Below are positions 37,573 through 64,000 of a stretch of DNA of 64,000 nucleotides, piece by piece. The DNA comes from Halorientalis sp. IM1011. GTDB taxonomy: Archaea; Halobacteriota; Halobacteria; Halobacteriales; Haloarculaceae. The stretch spans positions 1,736,001-1,800,000 of the forward strand of contig NZ_CP019067.1 of NCBI RefSeq assembly GCF_001989615.1, written 5' to 3'. The translations under genes and the position numbers were made by a program. How positions within the stretch are numbered: position 1 is the stretch's first letter; each line of letters starts with the position of its first letter. The notes below the pieces were generated by a model. The model was not told the DNA's origin, did not search any database, and worked only from the letters and a program-made list of their open reading frames with translations.

Positions 37573-38193
37573 ATGCCAACGGACATACCGCCGGAGGACC
37601 CACACGAGGAGATCGAGATCGAACGTCGACAGGTCGCGAAGGTACTGGCGGCGGTCAGTGGTGCCGGTGCCGTCAGCGCGTTCAGCGTCTCCGCGCTCGC
37701 CGGCCTCGGCGAGTCGGGGAAGATCGAACCGCCCGAACCGCTGTTCGTCGAGGGCGTCCGACTGGTCGACGCCGAGGGCGAACCCCTCACGACCACCGAC
37801 GCCATCCCGCAAAACGAGACACTGGAGCCGACGACCGTCTACCCCGAGAAGGAAGGCGGCGGCGCGATCACCGAGGACCGCGCCGCGGTCCTGCTCGTCC
37901 GGTTCCCCGAGGACAGCTATCAGGATCCGACGAACCTCGACGGGACCGTCGAGGGGTACGCGGCCTACTCGAAGGTGTGTACCCACCTGGGCTGTGCCGT
38001 CAACGGAACGGAGGGCGACCAGTTCTACTGTCAGTGTCACGGGTCGCAGTTCGACCCGCTACAGGGCGCGAAGGTGACCGGCGGCCCGGCACCGAGCCCG
38101 CTGCCACAGCTCCCGATCGGTGTCTCCGAGGGTGAGGACGGACAACTGCTCATGGCGACCGGCCCCTTCGAGGGCCCGGTCGGTCCCCAGTAA
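37573..38193 (+). CDS. petA: Rieske [2Fe-2S] protein of the cytochrome bc complex
   Basis: This 206-residue protein has an N-terminal membrane anchor (about residues 25-48) and a C-terminal Rieske domain. The cluster ligands are Cys136, His138 (CTHLGC) and Cys153, His156 (CQCHGS), and Cys141 and the Cys between the ligands form the usual disulfide. It takes electrons from quinol and hands them to the outer-surface acceptor. The RR pair usual in Rieske Tat signals appears as ERRQVAKVLAAVSG. Its stop is two bases before the cytochrome b gene. Confidence 0.95.
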   Translation: MPTDIPPEDPHEEIEIERRQVAKVLAAVSGAGAVSAFSVSALAGLGESGKIEPPEPLFVEGVRLVDAEGEPLTTTDAIPQNETLEPTTVYPEKEGGGAITEDRAAVLLVRFPEDSYQDPTNLDGTVEGYAAYSKVCTHLGCAVNGTEGDQFYCQCHGSQFDPLQGAKVTGGPAPSPLPQLPIGVSEGEDGQLLMATGPFEGPVGPQ

Positions 38194-38195
38194 CG

Positions 38196-39656
38196 ATGAC
38201 ACGCGACAACGCAGCCGACGGACCCGACGACGCGCCGGCCGACGAGACCGCAACGGACGGACGCGGCCACACGGGCGGCTACGACGGCACCACTGGCGGC
38301 GAACCCGTCCACGGCCGTGAGATCGAGACCCGCCAGAAGTACCCGAACAACCGCCTCTTTACGTGGCTCGACGACCGTCTCGAACTCAACCACGAGATCC
38401 TCGGGAAGGCCTTCCCCGAGGACAAGTACGGTTCGTTCCTGCTCGGCGAGATCGCCCTCTTCTCCTTTATCTTCCTGGCCGTGACCGGTTCCTTCCTCGG
38501 GCTGATGTACGAACCCGTCGCCGAGACAGTCACCTACGAGGGCAACGCCGCGGAGTGGGCGGGTCAGGAGGTCCCGGGCGCGTTCGCGAGCGTCCTCTCG
38601 ATCACGTACGACACGCCCTTCGGCATGTTCCTGCGGATGGCCCACCACTGGGCGGCGTACATCTTCATCGCCGCCATCGCCCTGCACATGTTCCGAGTGT
38701 TCTTCAGCGGTGCCTACCGCAACCCCCACGAGCCCAACTGGTTCGTCGGGAGCGTCCTGCTCTTGCTCGCTCTGGGTGAGGGCTTTTTCGGCTACGCGCT
38801 CCCGCTGGACGGGTTCAGCAAGGCGGCGACCACCATCGGGTTCAACATGACCGGCGCGGTGCCGTTCGTCGGTGAGTGGTTACAGGCGCTCGCCTTTGGC
38901 GGATCCTTCCCGGGGCAGGCCGAGCAGGTGATCCCGCACATGTTCTTCCTGCACGTCTTCCTGCTGCCCGCGCTGCTGGTGGGGATCATCGGCCTCCACA
39001 TGATGATCCTGATGCGCCAGAAACACACCGAGCACGCGCCCAGTTCCCGGAGCGGCGACCGCACCCCGGAGGCCGACGACGATTCGTTCGTCGTCGGGTC
39101 GCCCCTCTTCCCCCAGCAGTTCCTGCTCTCGACGGTCGTGCTCCTGCTGACGGCCGCCACCATCTCCTTTTTGGCGGCCTTCTTCCCCGTCCAGCGGATC
39201 GCCGCCATCGGTCTCGACTCCCCGAGCAGTCCGAGCCCCGACTGGTTTTTCATGTGGGTGTTCGGCTCGCTGAAGATGATCCCGGCGGAGCTATCGATCG
39301 CCGGGAGTACGATCGTTCTCGGTGGGTGGGCCGAGTTCATCGGCGGTATCCTGATCCCGATGGTGATCATCGGCGTGATGATCGTCTGGCCGCTGATCGA
39401 CAACACCGACGAGCCCAAACACTTCACCGTCGATCCGCTCGACCGTCCCGCCCAGACCGCCCTCGGCGTTGGGGCGATCATGCTCACCATCGTCCTCTCG
39501 ATCGACGGGATGCGCGGGACCGTCGCGGAGGTCCTCGGGATGTCGAGCGACGCGCTCTACCCCTATCTGGTCGCGATGACGTTCGCGGTCCCGATCCTGT
39601 ACACGCTGATCGTCTACGCCGTGCTCAAGCGCCGACAGCGCCGGCTCGCCGGGTAG
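38196..39656 (+). CDS. petB: Cytochrome b of the bc-type complex
   Basis: This 486-residue protein combines the b-heme half and the C-terminal half in one chain. Heme ligands lie in MAHHWAAYIFIAAIALHMF and HVFLLPALLVGIIGLHMM, each pair 14 residues apart. The quinol-site motif normally written PEWY reads PDWFF here (SPSPDWFFMW). The first 65 residues are a polar extension. It oxidises menaquinol and pumps protons with the Rieske protein. No cytochrome c gene is nearby, so copper proteins are the likely acceptors. Confidence 0.93.
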   Translation: MTRDNAADGPDDAPADETATDGRGHTGGYDGTTGGEPVHGREIETRQKYPNNRLFTWLDDRLELNHEILGKAFPEDKYGSFLLGEIALFSFIFLAVTGSFLGLMYEPVAETVTYEGNAAEWAGQEVPGAFASVLSITYDTPFGMFLRMAHHWAAYIFIAAIALHMFRVFFSGAYRNPHEPNWFVGSVLLLLALGEGFFGYALPLDGFSKAATTIGFNMTGAVPFVGEWLQALAFGGSFPGQAEQVIPHMFFLHVFLLPALLVGIIGLHMMILMRQKHTEHAPSSRSGDRTPEADDDSFVVGSPLFPQQFLLSTVVLLLTAATISFLAAFFPVQRIAAIGLDSPSSPSPDWFFMWVFGSLKMIPAELSIAGSTIVLGGWAEFIGGILIPMVIIGVMIVWPLIDNTDEPKHFTVDPLDRPAQTALGVGAIMLTIVLSIDGMRGTVAEVLGMSSDALYPYLVAMTFAVPILYTLIVYAVLKRRQRRLAG

Positions 39657-48851: not shown

Positions 48852-49988
48852 TTAAGAGTCCTCCCGTTTCCGTTCGTCGGGTTCCTCGCGTTTGGCCCGC
48901 TCGATCAACTCCGCGGCCCCCTGCTCGCGGAGCTCGTCCGCCAGGTCCGCGGCGGCCCGCGCGTGGTGTTCGACGGGCAGATCCCGACTGGCGTTTAGCT
49001 CCTCCGTGCCGTCGCGGCTGAGCACCCGCACGACGGTGTGCACGACCGTCCCCTGCACCGTCGCGTGGATGCCGATGGGCGCGACACACCCGCCGCCGAG
49101 TTCGTCCAGTACGATCCGCTCCACGGTGGTCGCCACCCGGGTCGGCGGGTGATCGAGCGTCTCGTGGATGGCGGCCCCGGTCTCGTCGTCGAGGGCGGTC
49201 ACCGCCAGCGCTCCCTGCCCCGGTGCGGGGACGAACCGGTCGGTCGGCAGCCGCTCGTACTCGACGGCGTGGAGCAGGCCCGTCCGGGCGAGCCCCGCTT
49301 CCGCCAGCACGATGGCGTCGTACTCGGTCTCGACCTCGCGCTCGGTCGCGCGGCGCTCGATCTCGTGGAGGCCGTCGAACCACTCCTCGATCTCGGCCAT
49401 CGTGGCCGCCGAGAGGTTCTCGGGGTCGAGGTCGTCGGCGTCCGCGTCGTCGTTGCTATCTCCCTGTGCTCTCTCCAGTCGCCGCTCGTGTTCCCGCTGG
49501 ATCGAGGGCGCGAGCAGCTTCTCGACGCGCGTGTCGACGTTCCCCCGGAGGGGTTCGATCTCCAGATCCGGTCGCTCGGCCCGGAGTTCGGCTCCGCGTC
49601 GGAGGCTGGCGGTGCCGACGGTCGCGCCCTCGGGGAGGTCTTCCAGTGGGGTGCCGTCCGGCGTCAGGAGCACGTCGCCGGCCGGGCCGCGTTCGGGCAC
49701 GCCCGCGACGACGAGATCGGGCGGGCTCTCGGTGGGCACGTCCTTCATGGAGTGAACGGCGGCGTCGACCTCGCCGTCGAGTACCTGCTGGTCGAGGCTG
49801 CGAACGAAGGCCCCGGTCTTGCCGAGGCGGTGGATCAGTTCGTCCTGTATCTGGTCGCCGGTGGTCTCGACCTCGAGCAGTTCGACCGACTGCCGACGGC
49901 TCGACAGCGCCTCCTGTACCGTGGCGGCCTGCCGCATGGCGAGGTCGGACCCCCGGGTCGCCAGCCGGAGCGTCCTGTCTGTGGTCAT
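48852..49988 (-). CDS. hemC: Hydroxymethylbilane synthase HemC
   Basis: This 378-residue enzyme joins four porphobilinogens. The dipyrromethane cofactor is attached to Cys301 in ELGGGCVAPIG, and the active-site blocks RLATRGSDLAMRQA, AVHSMKDVPTE and GTASLRRGAELRA are present. A polar insert of about 55 residues (about 180-235, RAQGDSNDDADADDLDPEN and on) makes it longer than bacterial HemC (about 310). It starts at the ATG at 49988. The mobile element begins within about 80 bases of that start and may have displaced promoter sequence. Confidence 0.94.
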   Translation of the reverse strand: MTTDRTLRLATRGSDLAMRQAATVQEALSSRRQSVELLEVETTGDQIQDELIHRLGKTGAFVRSLDQQVLDGEVDAAVHSMKDVPTESPPDLVVAGVPERGPAGDVLLTPDGTPLEDLPEGATVGTASLRRGAELRAERPDLEIEPLRGNVDTRVEKLLAPSIQREHERRLERAQGDSNDDADADDLDPENLSAATMAEIEEWFDGLHEIERRATEREVETEYDAIVLAEAGLARTGLLHAVEYERLPTDRFVPAPGQGALAVTALDDETGAAIHETLDHPPTRVATTVERIVLDELGGGCVAPIGIHATVQGTVVHTVVRVLSRDGTEELNASRDLPVEHHARAAADLADELREQGAAELIERAKREEPDERKREDS

Positions 49989-50223
49989 ACCCGCCCCTCG
50001 GCGGTCCGGCGTGAAAAGCACACCAGTTCCGGATCACTGCGGAGGCGGCCTCACCCAATTCGAGGCGGAGGCCCCACCCTCAAGGGGTGCCGGGCTTCCG
50101 GCCCCGGCGGAAGCACAAGCGAGTAGGGTGGGGAGGAAGCCGACCCGGTATCAACCAGCCGCCAGACTGTTTCCTGCTAACTCCCAATCATTAAGTAACT
50201 ACAAACAGATATATGAAAATATC

Positions 50224-51435
50224 GTGGAGTACCGTCGAACCGCCGTTATCAAGCTCGACACGCCTGAAGGCGCGGATACACACTTTCGGGAGACTGTCGA
50301 GCAATTCAAATACTGTTCCAACACCGCGAGCGAGTGGTGCTGGCACGGCGACGACGGCTACCACGTCACATCCAAGGCGAAGGCCGAAGATGCGCTGTAC
50401 GACCAGCTACGCGAGGACACAGAGTTGACCGCGAATCTCGTCCAGAAGGGGATTCATCAGGCCGTCGAAGCCATCAAAAGCGGCGTCGAACGACTCAAAA
50501 ACGACCAAAGTACGTCTCGTCCGACGTTCACGGCTGATACCGCTATCTACGACAAGCGAAGTGCCACGTTCCACCGTGACCACGTTTCGCTATCAACACC
50601 GGACGGACGAATCGAGTGCGATTATATTCTCCCTGAGAATCCCGACACACCGCCGACAAAGTACGTCACAGACGAGGACTACGAGTTTCGGCGGGCAACA
50701 CTGCATCGACGTGACGGCGACTGGTATCTTCATGCGTCGATGCTCAAAGTCGAGGACGACGACACCGAACCTACCACCGGGCACAGAACAGTCCTCGGTG
50801 TGGACCTCGGTGTGAACCAACTCGCGGTCGCTTCGACCGGGCGGTTCTGGTCAGCAGACGAGTTCAACCACTGGAAGCGAGAGTACGAGAACCGGCGTGG
50901 CGACCTCCAGCAGTGTGGAACGCGGGCGGCTCACGAGGCGATAGCAGGCGTCGAGCGCAAAGAGGACGGACGCTTCGAGATATTCCTGCATCGTGTCGCC
51001 AACGAGATCGTAGCCGAAGCCGTCGAACACGACTGTTCGCATATCGTGTTCGAGGACCTGACCGACATTCGTGAGAACGTGCCAGAAGCGTCGTGGCACC
51101 ATCTGTGGGCGTTCCGTCGCCTCTACGAGTACGTCGCCTACAAAGCCAGAGAGCAGGGCGTCGAAGCCGTCCAAGTGGACCCACGGAACACGTCAAAGCG
51201 GTGTTCGACCTGTGGATTTACCCACGACGACAACCGCCACGGCGAGGACTTCGAGTGTCTGGATTGCGGCTACCAGAACCACGCCGACTACAACGCTTCC
51301 AAGAATATTGGCCTTCAGTATCTCCGGCGTCGGCAAAACGCAGACGACGGAGGCGCACCCGTAGACGTGCGCTTGAATCGCGGGACGTTGAACGTGAGTG
51401 GAGAGTATAACCTTCCCGCCTCATCCGAGGCGTAG
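50224..51435 (+). CDS. tnpB: RNA-guided endonuclease TnpB
   Basis: This 403-residue protein is the ancestor type of Cas12. The RuvC residues Asp194 (LGVDLGVNQLAVAS), Glu277 (IVFEDLTDIRE) and Asp355 (HADYNASKNIG) are intact. A zinc ribbon (CSTC...CLDC, about residues 326-345) sits between the last two. The start is a GTG at 50224 (VEYRRTAVIKLD); the open frame extends upstream, but that part is the hairpin of the left end. Codon use and A/T content differ from neighbours, which fits transfer. It appears complete and possibly active. Confidence 0.92.
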   Translation: MEYRRTAVIKLDTPEGADTHFRETVEQFKYCSNTASEWCWHGDDGYHVTSKAKAEDALYDQLREDTELTANLVQKGIHQAVEAIKSGVERLKNDQSTSRPTFTADTAIYDKRSATFHRDHVSLSTPDGRIECDYILPENPDTPPTKYVTDEDYEFRRATLHRRDGDWYLHASMLKVEDDDTEPTTGHRTVLGVDLGVNQLAVASTGRFWSADEFNHWKREYENRRGDLQQCGTRAAHEAIAGVERKEDGRFEIFLHRVANEIVAEAVEHDCSHIVFEDLTDIRENVPEASWHHLWAFRRLYEYVAYKAREQGVEAVQVDPRNTSKRCSTCGFTHDDNRHGEDFECLDCGYQNHADYNASKNIGLQYLRRRQNADDGGAPVDVRLNRGTLNVSGEYNLPASSEA

Positions 51436-51513: not shown

Positions 51514-52056
51514 TTACCACGGCTCGCTCTTCAGCGAGAGCTTGTAGGCCACGAGGTTCGTCCCGACGTGGAGGACGGGCGTGATGACCAGCACCACGGC
51601 CAGGATCGGGAGCGTGAACGTCCCGGCGAACCACTCCGGAGCGAACAGGACTGTGAGCCCGAGCGCTCCGACCACGAAATCGAGCTGGTCGATGCCGGGG
51701 AACGCCGCCCCGCGCTCCCGCCCCGTCCGGCGCTTGAGGAACGAGGCCGCGATGTCACCCAGCAACGCGCCGGTCGGCAGCGTGATCGCGGCGACGAGCG
51801 AAAAGCGCGGGAGCCCCGCGACCGCACCCGAGACCGCCGGGTGGACGGCGTTCAAAAGCAGGGCCAGCACCGCGCCGGCCGCGATCCCGCTCGCGGTCCC
51901 GAGCCAGGTCTTCCCGTCGCCGAGTATCCGTTTGCCGTTCCAGGTCCGCCCACCGTCGATCGGTGGCCCCCCACCGAGCAGTACCGCGGCGTTGTTGGGC
52001 ACGTACGCGGGCAACATCGCCCAGAACGCCACCGCGAGTACACCGACGATGTCCAT
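51514..52056 (-). CDS. carS: CDP-archaeol synthase CarS
   Basis: This 180-residue membrane enzyme activates unsaturated archaetidic acid with CTP in archaeal phospholipid synthesis. The signature PPIDGGRTWNGKRILGDGKT lies near residue 31, and about five hydrophobic segments follow. It starts at the ATG at 52056. The C-terminus LKSEPW ends at TAA in positions 51514-51516, exactly where the TnpB element ends, but the reading frame seems undamaged. Confidence 0.93.
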   Translation of the reverse strand: MDIVGVLAVAFWAMLPAYVPNNAAVLLGGGPPIDGGRTWNGKRILGDGKTWLGTASGIAAGAVLALLLNAVHPAVSGAVAGLPRFSLVAAITLPTGALLGDIAASFLKRRTGRERGAAFPGIDQLDFVVGALGLTVLFAPEWFAGTFTLPILAVVLVITPVLHVGTNLVAYKLSLKSEPW

Positions 52057-52143: not shown

Positions 52144-52974
52144 ATGATCCCGCCGATAGCGAGTCGCTTCGTCGCGGGGGAGTCCGAGGCCGCGGCGCTG
52201 GAGCGGGCGCGGCGGCTGAACGACCGCGGTATCGGGGCGATTCTCAACCACCTGGGCGAACACTACGACGAGCGCGGCCCGGCCGACGCGGACACCGAGG
52301 CGTACTGCACGCTGCTCTCGGACCTCGAGGGAACGGATCTGCGGGCCTGCATCTCGATCAAACCCTCACAGATCGGGCTGGACGTGGACGAGTCGGTCTT
52401 CCGGGAGAACCTCGCCCGCATCGTCGACCGGGCGAGCGAGCCGGGCGTGTTCGTCTGGCTCGACATGGAGGATCACACGACGACCGACGCGACCCTCGAC
52501 GCGTTCGAGGAGCAGGTCACCGATCACGACGGCGGGGTCGGCGTCTGTCTCCAGGCCAACCTCCGGCGCACCCCCGAGGACCTCTCGCGGCTGGCCGACC
52601 TGCCGGGGAAGGTGCGGCTGGTGAAGGGGGCCTACGACCCGCCCGATGACGTGGCGCTGCCGCGTGCCGAGGTCGACGACGCATACAGAGAACTGCTGGC
52701 GCAGGCGTTCGCCGAGCGGGCGGGCGGGATCGCGGTCGGCAGTCACGATCCGGCGATGATCGGAGCCGCCGAGGCCCTCCACGACGAGTACGGGACGCCC
52801 TACGAGATCCAGATGCTGATGGGCGTGCGCGAACCCGCCCAGGAGCGACTGGCCGCCGACCGCGAGGTCTGGTAGTACGTCCCCTACGGGGGGCAGTGGC
52901 TCTCCTATTTCTACCGGCGCGTCGCCGAGCGCCGGGGGAATCTGACCTTCGCGCTCCGAGCAATCGTCAACTAG
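52144..52974 (+). pseudogene. putA: Proline dehydrogenase interrupted by an in-frame TAG
   Basis: The frame from the ATG at 52144 encodes a FAD-dependent proline dehydrogenase (ISIKPSQIGLDVDESVF, WLDMEDHTTTDATL, QANLRRTPEDL, RLVKGAYDPP, GSHDP, EIQMLMGVRE). It stops at TAG 52873-52875 after 243 residues. The next 32 codons in the same frame encode the expected C-terminus (YVPYGGQWLSYFYRRVAERR and on) and end at TAG 52972-52974. The family usually has Gln at the interrupted position, so one C-to-T change explains it. The lost part includes the Arg-Arg pair of YFYRRV that holds the proline carboxylate. It is either a fresh pseudogene or read through. Confidence 0.85.
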
Positions 52975-53009
52975 TAAAGGGAGGGACAAGAACCACACCG
53001 TACCGCAAT

Positions 53010-53684
53010 ATGGCCTCCTGGAAGCGGGACATCGCGAGTGGACTCATCGTCTTGCTGCCCGTCATCGTCACCCTGTACGTCATCGCGTATCTCTACGGGG
53101 TCATCGCCAGTTCGACGGCCATCTTCAATATCGACTTTCAGGTGTTGACGAGTCTGGGCGTGCCACAGCAGGCGCTGGGACTGATTCGCGTGCTCACGAC
53201 GCTCGTGGTCTTTTTCCTGCTGGTGCTGTCGGTCGGCTATCTCAGCCGGACGGCGTTCGGCGACATCTTCGAGGACCTGCTGGACAACCTGATGAACCGG
53301 CTACCGGGGCTCCGGGTCGTCTACAACGCCTCGAAGATGGCCGTCGAGACCGCCGTCTCGGGCACCGACGAACTCCAGAAACCGGTCAAACTCGAGACGT
53401 GGAACGGGATGCGGATGACCGCCTTCAAGACCGGTAAACAGACCCCCGACGGCCGCGACGTGCTCTTTCTCCCGACCGCACCCAACATCACTACCGGATT
53501 CGTCGTCGAGGTCGAACCCGACGAGTACGAGGAACTGGACGAACGCGTCGAGGACGCCCTCACGCGCATCCTCAGTGCCGGGTTCGGCGAATCCCGTGAC
53601 AGCAGCGTCGCGATCAGCGTCACCGAGGAACTGTCGGGCGACGCGAATCGAGACGGCGACCGCGACGGCGACGCCGACGACTAA
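53010..53684 (+). CDS. DUF502 family membrane protein
   Basis: This 224-residue protein has two N-terminal membrane segments (about residues 9-33 and 60-85). A cytoplasmic or outer beta-type domain follows with RLPGLRVVYNASKMAVETAV and VLFLPTAPNITTGFVVEVE, the signature of DUF502. An acidic tail is present. The start at the ATG at 53010 is 35 bases after the original end of the proline dehydrogenase frame. Family function is unknown. Confidence 0.85.
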   Translation: MASWKRDIASGLIVLLPVIVTLYVIAYLYGVIASSTAIFNIDFQVLTSLGVPQQALGLIRVLTTLVVFFLLVLSVGYLSRTAFGDIFEDLLDNLMNRLPGLRVVYNASKMAVETAVSGTDELQKPVKLETWNGMRMTAFKTGKQTPDGRDVLFLPTAPNITTGFVVEVEPDEYEELDERVEDALTRILSAGFGESRDSSVAISVTEELSGDANRDGDRDGDADD

Positions 53685-63575: not shown

Positions 63576-64000
63576 ATGAGTAGCTCCGAGCAGGACCAGA
63601 CGGACAAACAAAAATACGAGTTCCAGAAGGTCATCGAGGACCTCAAAGAGTACGAGGGGTCGGGGACGCAACTCGTCACCATCTACATCCCCGAGGATCG
63701 CCAGATCAGCTCCGTCGTCGAACACGTCACCCAGGAGCACAGCGAGGCCTCCAACATCAAGTCCAAGCAGACCCGCACCGCCGTGCAGGACGCGCTGACC
63801 TCCATCAAGGACCGCCTGCGCTACTACGACGTCTACCCGCCCGACAACGGCATGGTCATCTTCTCGGGTGCCATCGACTCCGGCGGCGGCCGCACCGAGA
63901 TGGTCACCAAGGTGCTCGAATCGCCGCCCCAGTCCATCGAGTCGTTCCGCTACCACTGCGATTCGGACTTCCTCACCGAACCGCTCGAAGAGATGCTCGG
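63576..64000 (+). CDS. prf1: Peptide chain release factor aRF1, N-terminal part
   Basis: The first 141 codons lie in the window and the gene runs off the right edge. The product recognises all three stop codons and releases the peptide. The stop-reading loop NIKS is at residues 60-63 (EASNIKSKQTRTAV), and the YxCxxxF-type region (FRYHCDSDFLTE) is near residue 125. The GGQ domain lies beyond the window. It starts at the ATG at 63576 after a GGAG. It is divergent from the MinD-like gene. Confidence 0.95.
   Translation, partial: MSSSEQDQTDKQKYEFQKVIEDLKEYEGSGTQLVTIYIPEDRQISSVVEHVTQEHSEASNIKSKQTRTAVQDALTSIKDRLRYYDVYPPDNGMVIFSGAIDSGGGRTEMVTKVLESPPQSIESFRYHCDSDFLTEPLEEML

Follow-up and report, generated by a model that had tools for sequence, protein, structure and literature searches.

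What does the single in-frame TAG in the proline dehydrogenase (ProDH) gene of Halorientalis sp. IM1011 (G000) signify: a gene lost by point mutation, a stop codon that is read through, or a wrong base in the assembly? We favor the first answer, at a probability of roughly 0.82, namely that the gene is an ordinary recent nonsense pseudogene produced by a C-to-T change at codon 244.

The interrupted frame and what lies past the stop

The window, meaning the whole stretch of 64,000 nt that was analyzed, is part of the main contig in a 3.78 Mb assembly (3 contigs, 99.99% completeness). The ProDH frame in it, 52144-52974, starts with ATG at 52144 and contains a single internal stop, the TAG at 52873-52875 that occupies codon 244; a second TAG at 52972-52974 closes the frame and is followed immediately by TAA. 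The features of the locus are these:

51514..52056, minus strand: left neighbor, a 180-aa membrane protein that we take to be CarS-like; syntenic in eight genus genomes
52144..52974, plus strand: PF01619 ProDH frame, interrupted by one TAG; either a nonsense pseudogene or a 276-aa readthrough ORF
52144..52875, plus strand: translatable ORF of 243 aa; barrel strands beta1-beta7 and the first residues of beta8
52873..52875, plus strand: premature TAG where every aligned haloarchaeal relative has the Gln codon CAG
52876..52971, plus strand: the lost C-terminal 32 codons beyond the premature TAG; end of beta8 and helix alpha8
52972..52977, plus strand: original gene end, TAG TAA in tandem, as also in G002, G004 and G005
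53010..53684, plus strand: right neighbor, a membrane protein, presumably DUF502-like; syntenic in eight genus genomes

The Pfam Pro_dh model (PF01619) matches straight across the stop, from residue 18 to 269 (E 5.7e-25, 88.9 bits, cut-off 27), and the read-through frame aligns with an intact relative over residues 1-276 at 85% identity. The nearest ProDH relatives are those of Halorientalis persicus (85% identity) and H. pallida (83%), and the nearest solved structures are the ProDHs of Deinococcus radiodurans and Thermus thermophilus. Translation, Pfam match and alignment thus confirm what an earlier note had described from the letters of this DNA, a complete ProDH frame that is split by one TAG, needs no frameshift and goes on past the stop to a C-terminus typical of the family.

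Of the aligned haloarchaeal entries, 91/91 have CAG (Gln) as codon 244, a count in which some genes were fetched twice, and residue 244 is Ile, Leu or Met only in distant Micrarchaeota copies in the same alignment. The earlier note had named Gln as the usual residue at the interrupted place, which for haloarchaea is what the alignment gives. Gln 244 was part of one of the locus-fetching patterns but of none of five others, and it had no part in the genome searches. Because all 91 haloarchaeal entries carry CAG at this codon, the interruption is, to judge from the alignment, not a chance stop in a non-gene. Among the aligned sequences we found no relative with a stop at residue 244 or a protein ending there.

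Eight alignment columns past the stop are invariant even against Micrarchaeota (Y245, P247, G249, W252, Y255, R258, R259 and E262). R258 and R259, in the motif YFYRR, align with the proline-binding Arg288 and Arg289 of T. thermophilus ProDH, so that the TAG does precede the substrate-binding YxRR arginines, as had been claimed; the motif sits after the stop and is absent from the translated 243-aa ORF. When the read-through frame is modeled with AlphaFold (mean pLDDT 90.9), the stop falls within beta8 (242-248), which is followed by alpha8 (252-275), so that in the model the last strand of the TIM barrel is interrupted and the rest of beta8 and alpha8 are removed. Since these elements and both proline-binding arginines are missing, the structural model argues that no activity is to be expected of the 243-residue product. 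In T. thermophilus, a ProDH variant without the tail that starts at Arg288 had hardly any activity (PMC6017737), but this variant also lacked the N-terminal arm and its low activity is therefore not due to the C-terminal loss alone. The read-through frame shares sequence, a predicted beta/alpha barrel and the YxRR motif with monofunctional ProDHs (PF01619; T. thermophilus 2EKG/2G37, D. radiodurans 4H6Q), whereas the ORF translated in G000 stops before YxRR.

Loss of proline dehydrogenase in Halorientalis

The earlier note had proposed looking for a second putA, and a search of the genome found no other ProDH, making the interrupted gene the only one in G000. The genus was surveyed in eight Halorientalis genomes, G000 and seven others, in all of which the ProDH site is flanked by the same two neighbors. 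ProDH is intact in four of the seven others (G003, G004, G005 and G006). The G002 locus carries a 10-nt deletion, the G007 locus is missing about 110 codons, is shifted in frame and has no start left, and in G001 the gene is gone, with just 157 bp between the flanking genes. An intact copy at this locus is consequently absent from half of the genus (4/8 genomes, G000 included). Because the lesions differ between genomes, the losses would most simply be independent. At least four different lesions account for the loss of ProDH in this small genus: nonsense mutation, small deletion, large deletion and complete removal. This loss by multiple lesions is the sole addition of wider use made here, a clean, small example of the recurrent independent loss of one catabolic gene at one conserved locus in a genus, and it means that a ProDH-like sequence in Halorientalis is no proof of proline catabolism.

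In an order-wide search ProDH was found in 349/392 genomes, and none of the other ProDHs among the matches listed has an internal stop. An earlier survey reported ProDH in 7/10 haloarchaeal genomes and P5C dehydrogenase in only one (PMC3102087). We searched the genus genomes for loss of this partner alongside ProDH, and P5C dehydrogenase (TIGR01237) scored above cut-off in none of them, so that the comparison offers no contrast between genomes with and without ProDH.

G005 has a second ProDH (G005:C1:1984149-1987270), 63% identical to the one in the window and adjoining an aldehyde dehydrogenase gene; the two possibly form a proline-utilization pair distinct from the CarS/DUF502 locus. The ORF at 49819-51435, which closely precedes the ProDH region in the window, has, by eye, the appearance of an IS200/IS605-type TnpB transposase-associated protein.

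Age of the lesion and the case for a base error

The favored reading, a recent nonsense pseudogene, supposes one C-to-T transition, by which codon 244 of the sole ProDH gene in the genome changed from the conserved Gln to TAG. Translation would then end at 243 aa inside beta8, giving an inactive product without both proline-binding arginines, and the rest of the gene would be undamaged because the mutation is young. The loss would be tolerated, since the distribution of ProDH among haloarchaea is patchy and Halorientalis has broken or lost it repeatedly. What the data show directly is the stop, a Gln that never varies in haloarchaeal relatives, one ProDH copy, different lesions elsewhere in the genus and constraint along the G000 branch; we infer that the base in the DNA is genuine, that the truncated product has no activity and that losing it costs little. 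The nonsense reading, already put forward in the earlier note, is supported by the CAG in all haloarchaeal relatives, by the lack of a second ProDH, by the loss of the arginines and by the presence of other lesions in three Halorientalis genomes. Disrupted genes of the same kind, in which a sense codon has become an in-frame stop in a gene that is otherwise intact and aligns over its full length with homologs, have been catalogued in Haloquadratum walsbyi (PMC3119063) and in the haloarchaeal curation set (PMC4500146). Nothing essential sets the present gene apart from these; it would be one more case, in a gene lost by several routes.

Against a pseudogene stands that a single base is all that keeps the gene from looking functional, with no other decay seen. 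In a codon model on ten sequences, comparing the G000 branch with the rest, omega was 0.094 on that branch and 0.077 elsewhere; omega = 1 was rejected (2dL 25.4), and the branch did not differ from the rest (2dL 0.3). When the branch was split into a constrained part and a final neutral part, the maximum-likelihood neutral share was 0, with a 95% upper limit of about 8%. G000 ProDH keeps every site that is conserved at 95% or more, the stop excepted. The disrupted G002 copy differs at five of these sites, more than any other sequence in the set, as might be expected if its loss is older. Neither omega nor the conserved sites thus gave any sign of relaxed selection or further decay in G000 ProDH. 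Missing decay is expected for a very recent lesion and hence is compatible with a nonsense pseudogene; purifying selection appears to have acted on the gene until very recently, which fits a young lesion, an aspect that the earlier note had not taken up. The same constraint fits three cases alike. From the constrained branch and the unchanged conserved sites it therefore follows that the lesion is recent, or that the sequence is still under selection, or that the base is in error.

The last of these is the chief rival of the nonsense pseudogene. The TAG might be a sequencing or assembly error, or a mutation confined to the cultured clone while the wild population keeps an intact gene, and either would also result in normal constraint and no decay besides the stop. 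We nevertheless regard this explanation as unlikely, in view of an assembly of so few contigs and such high completeness and because no other conserved gene in the window was interrupted among those compared with G004. In addition, half of the genus is without an intact copy, which makes a real loss plausible.

Decoding of UAG

A far less probable alternative is readthrough at UAG 244, due either to near-cognate decoding or to an unrecognized suppressor and yielding full-length ProDH at a low or regulated level. In its favor are the 32 intact codons downstream and the strong purifying selection on the whole gene, although recency accounts equally well for the constraint. The case resembles pyrrolysine or suppressor UAG readthrough in archaea in that conserved coding sequence follows an in-frame UAG. 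It differs in that G000 is without PylS, without a CUA tRNA and uses TAG as an ordinary stop. The search for pyl genes proposed in the earlier note gave, for PylS in G000, two weak matches, the best at 25.7 bits against a cut-off of 178.15; in the control search the cut-off was reached in 1/14 genomes, and most controls gave similar weak matches. The proposed search for a suppressor tRNA found no CUA anticodon among 70 tRNA hits (RF00005), for nearly all of which the anticodon was read; two weak hits, the weakest (C1:630513) and C1:2980456, received no ARAGORN call. The genome has one ordinary aRF1. The suggestion of readthrough or suppression was accordingly left unsupported. A stimulatory RNA structure after the TAG was also considered and rejected, as the fold there (z -1.05) stays within expectation and is not unusual beside those of relatives without the stop (-0.14 and -1.31). 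A stop at residue 244 occurs in no relative, and a 2021 review lists Sec and Pyl as the only demonstrated cases of stop readthrough in archaea (PMC8211752). If readthrough were true, it would be a notable instance of haloarchaeal stop-codon recoding without known machinery, and the intact downstream frame alone points there. The specific version, a haloarchaeal mechanism that makes low-level full-length ProDH with neither PylS nor a CUA tRNA, is slightly more improbable again, though it would explain why the sequence past the stop is undamaged.

The stop usage of the window bears on decoding more generally. The gene ends compared are those of the 64,000-nt window, set against G004. The 56 window ORFs that have a G004 match end in TAG 21 times, TGA 20 times and TAA 15 times, TAG being the commonest. 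Of the 21 TAG ends, 16 coincide with the end of the G004 gene, and six of these are TGA or TAA in G004; the other five are ProDH, one gene that lies directly before the next, and three apparent shadow or poorly aligned frames. General reassignment of UAG, judged unlikely in the earlier note, is thus excluded for practical purposes, as far as these gene ends show.

Least probable of all is that the 243-residue protein is itself functional in a shorter or altered role: the frame upstream of the stop is intact, but the protein would end in the middle of beta8 without eight residues invariant even in Micrarchaeota, and no relative's protein ends there.

A candidate for a second in-frame TAG was the gene ending at 39656, a cytochrome b-like gene (38136-39656) whose TAG stands directly before the next ATG and whose G004 copy is about 106 codons longer in frame. 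It was rejected, since the next gene follows directly and nothing homologous to the G004 extension was found. The aRF1 gene starts in the window at 63609-64000 and runs past its end (G000:C1:1799609-1800817). Outside the window, at G000:C1:2239040-2244716, 31 predicted tRNA genes lie densely clustered; they cover most amino acids and come on top of an ordinary dispersed set. Arrays of this kind could include a suppressor tRNA, but that was rejected here, as no CUA, UUA or UCA anticodon occurs in the cluster; the cluster is possibly a viral or mobile tRNA array.
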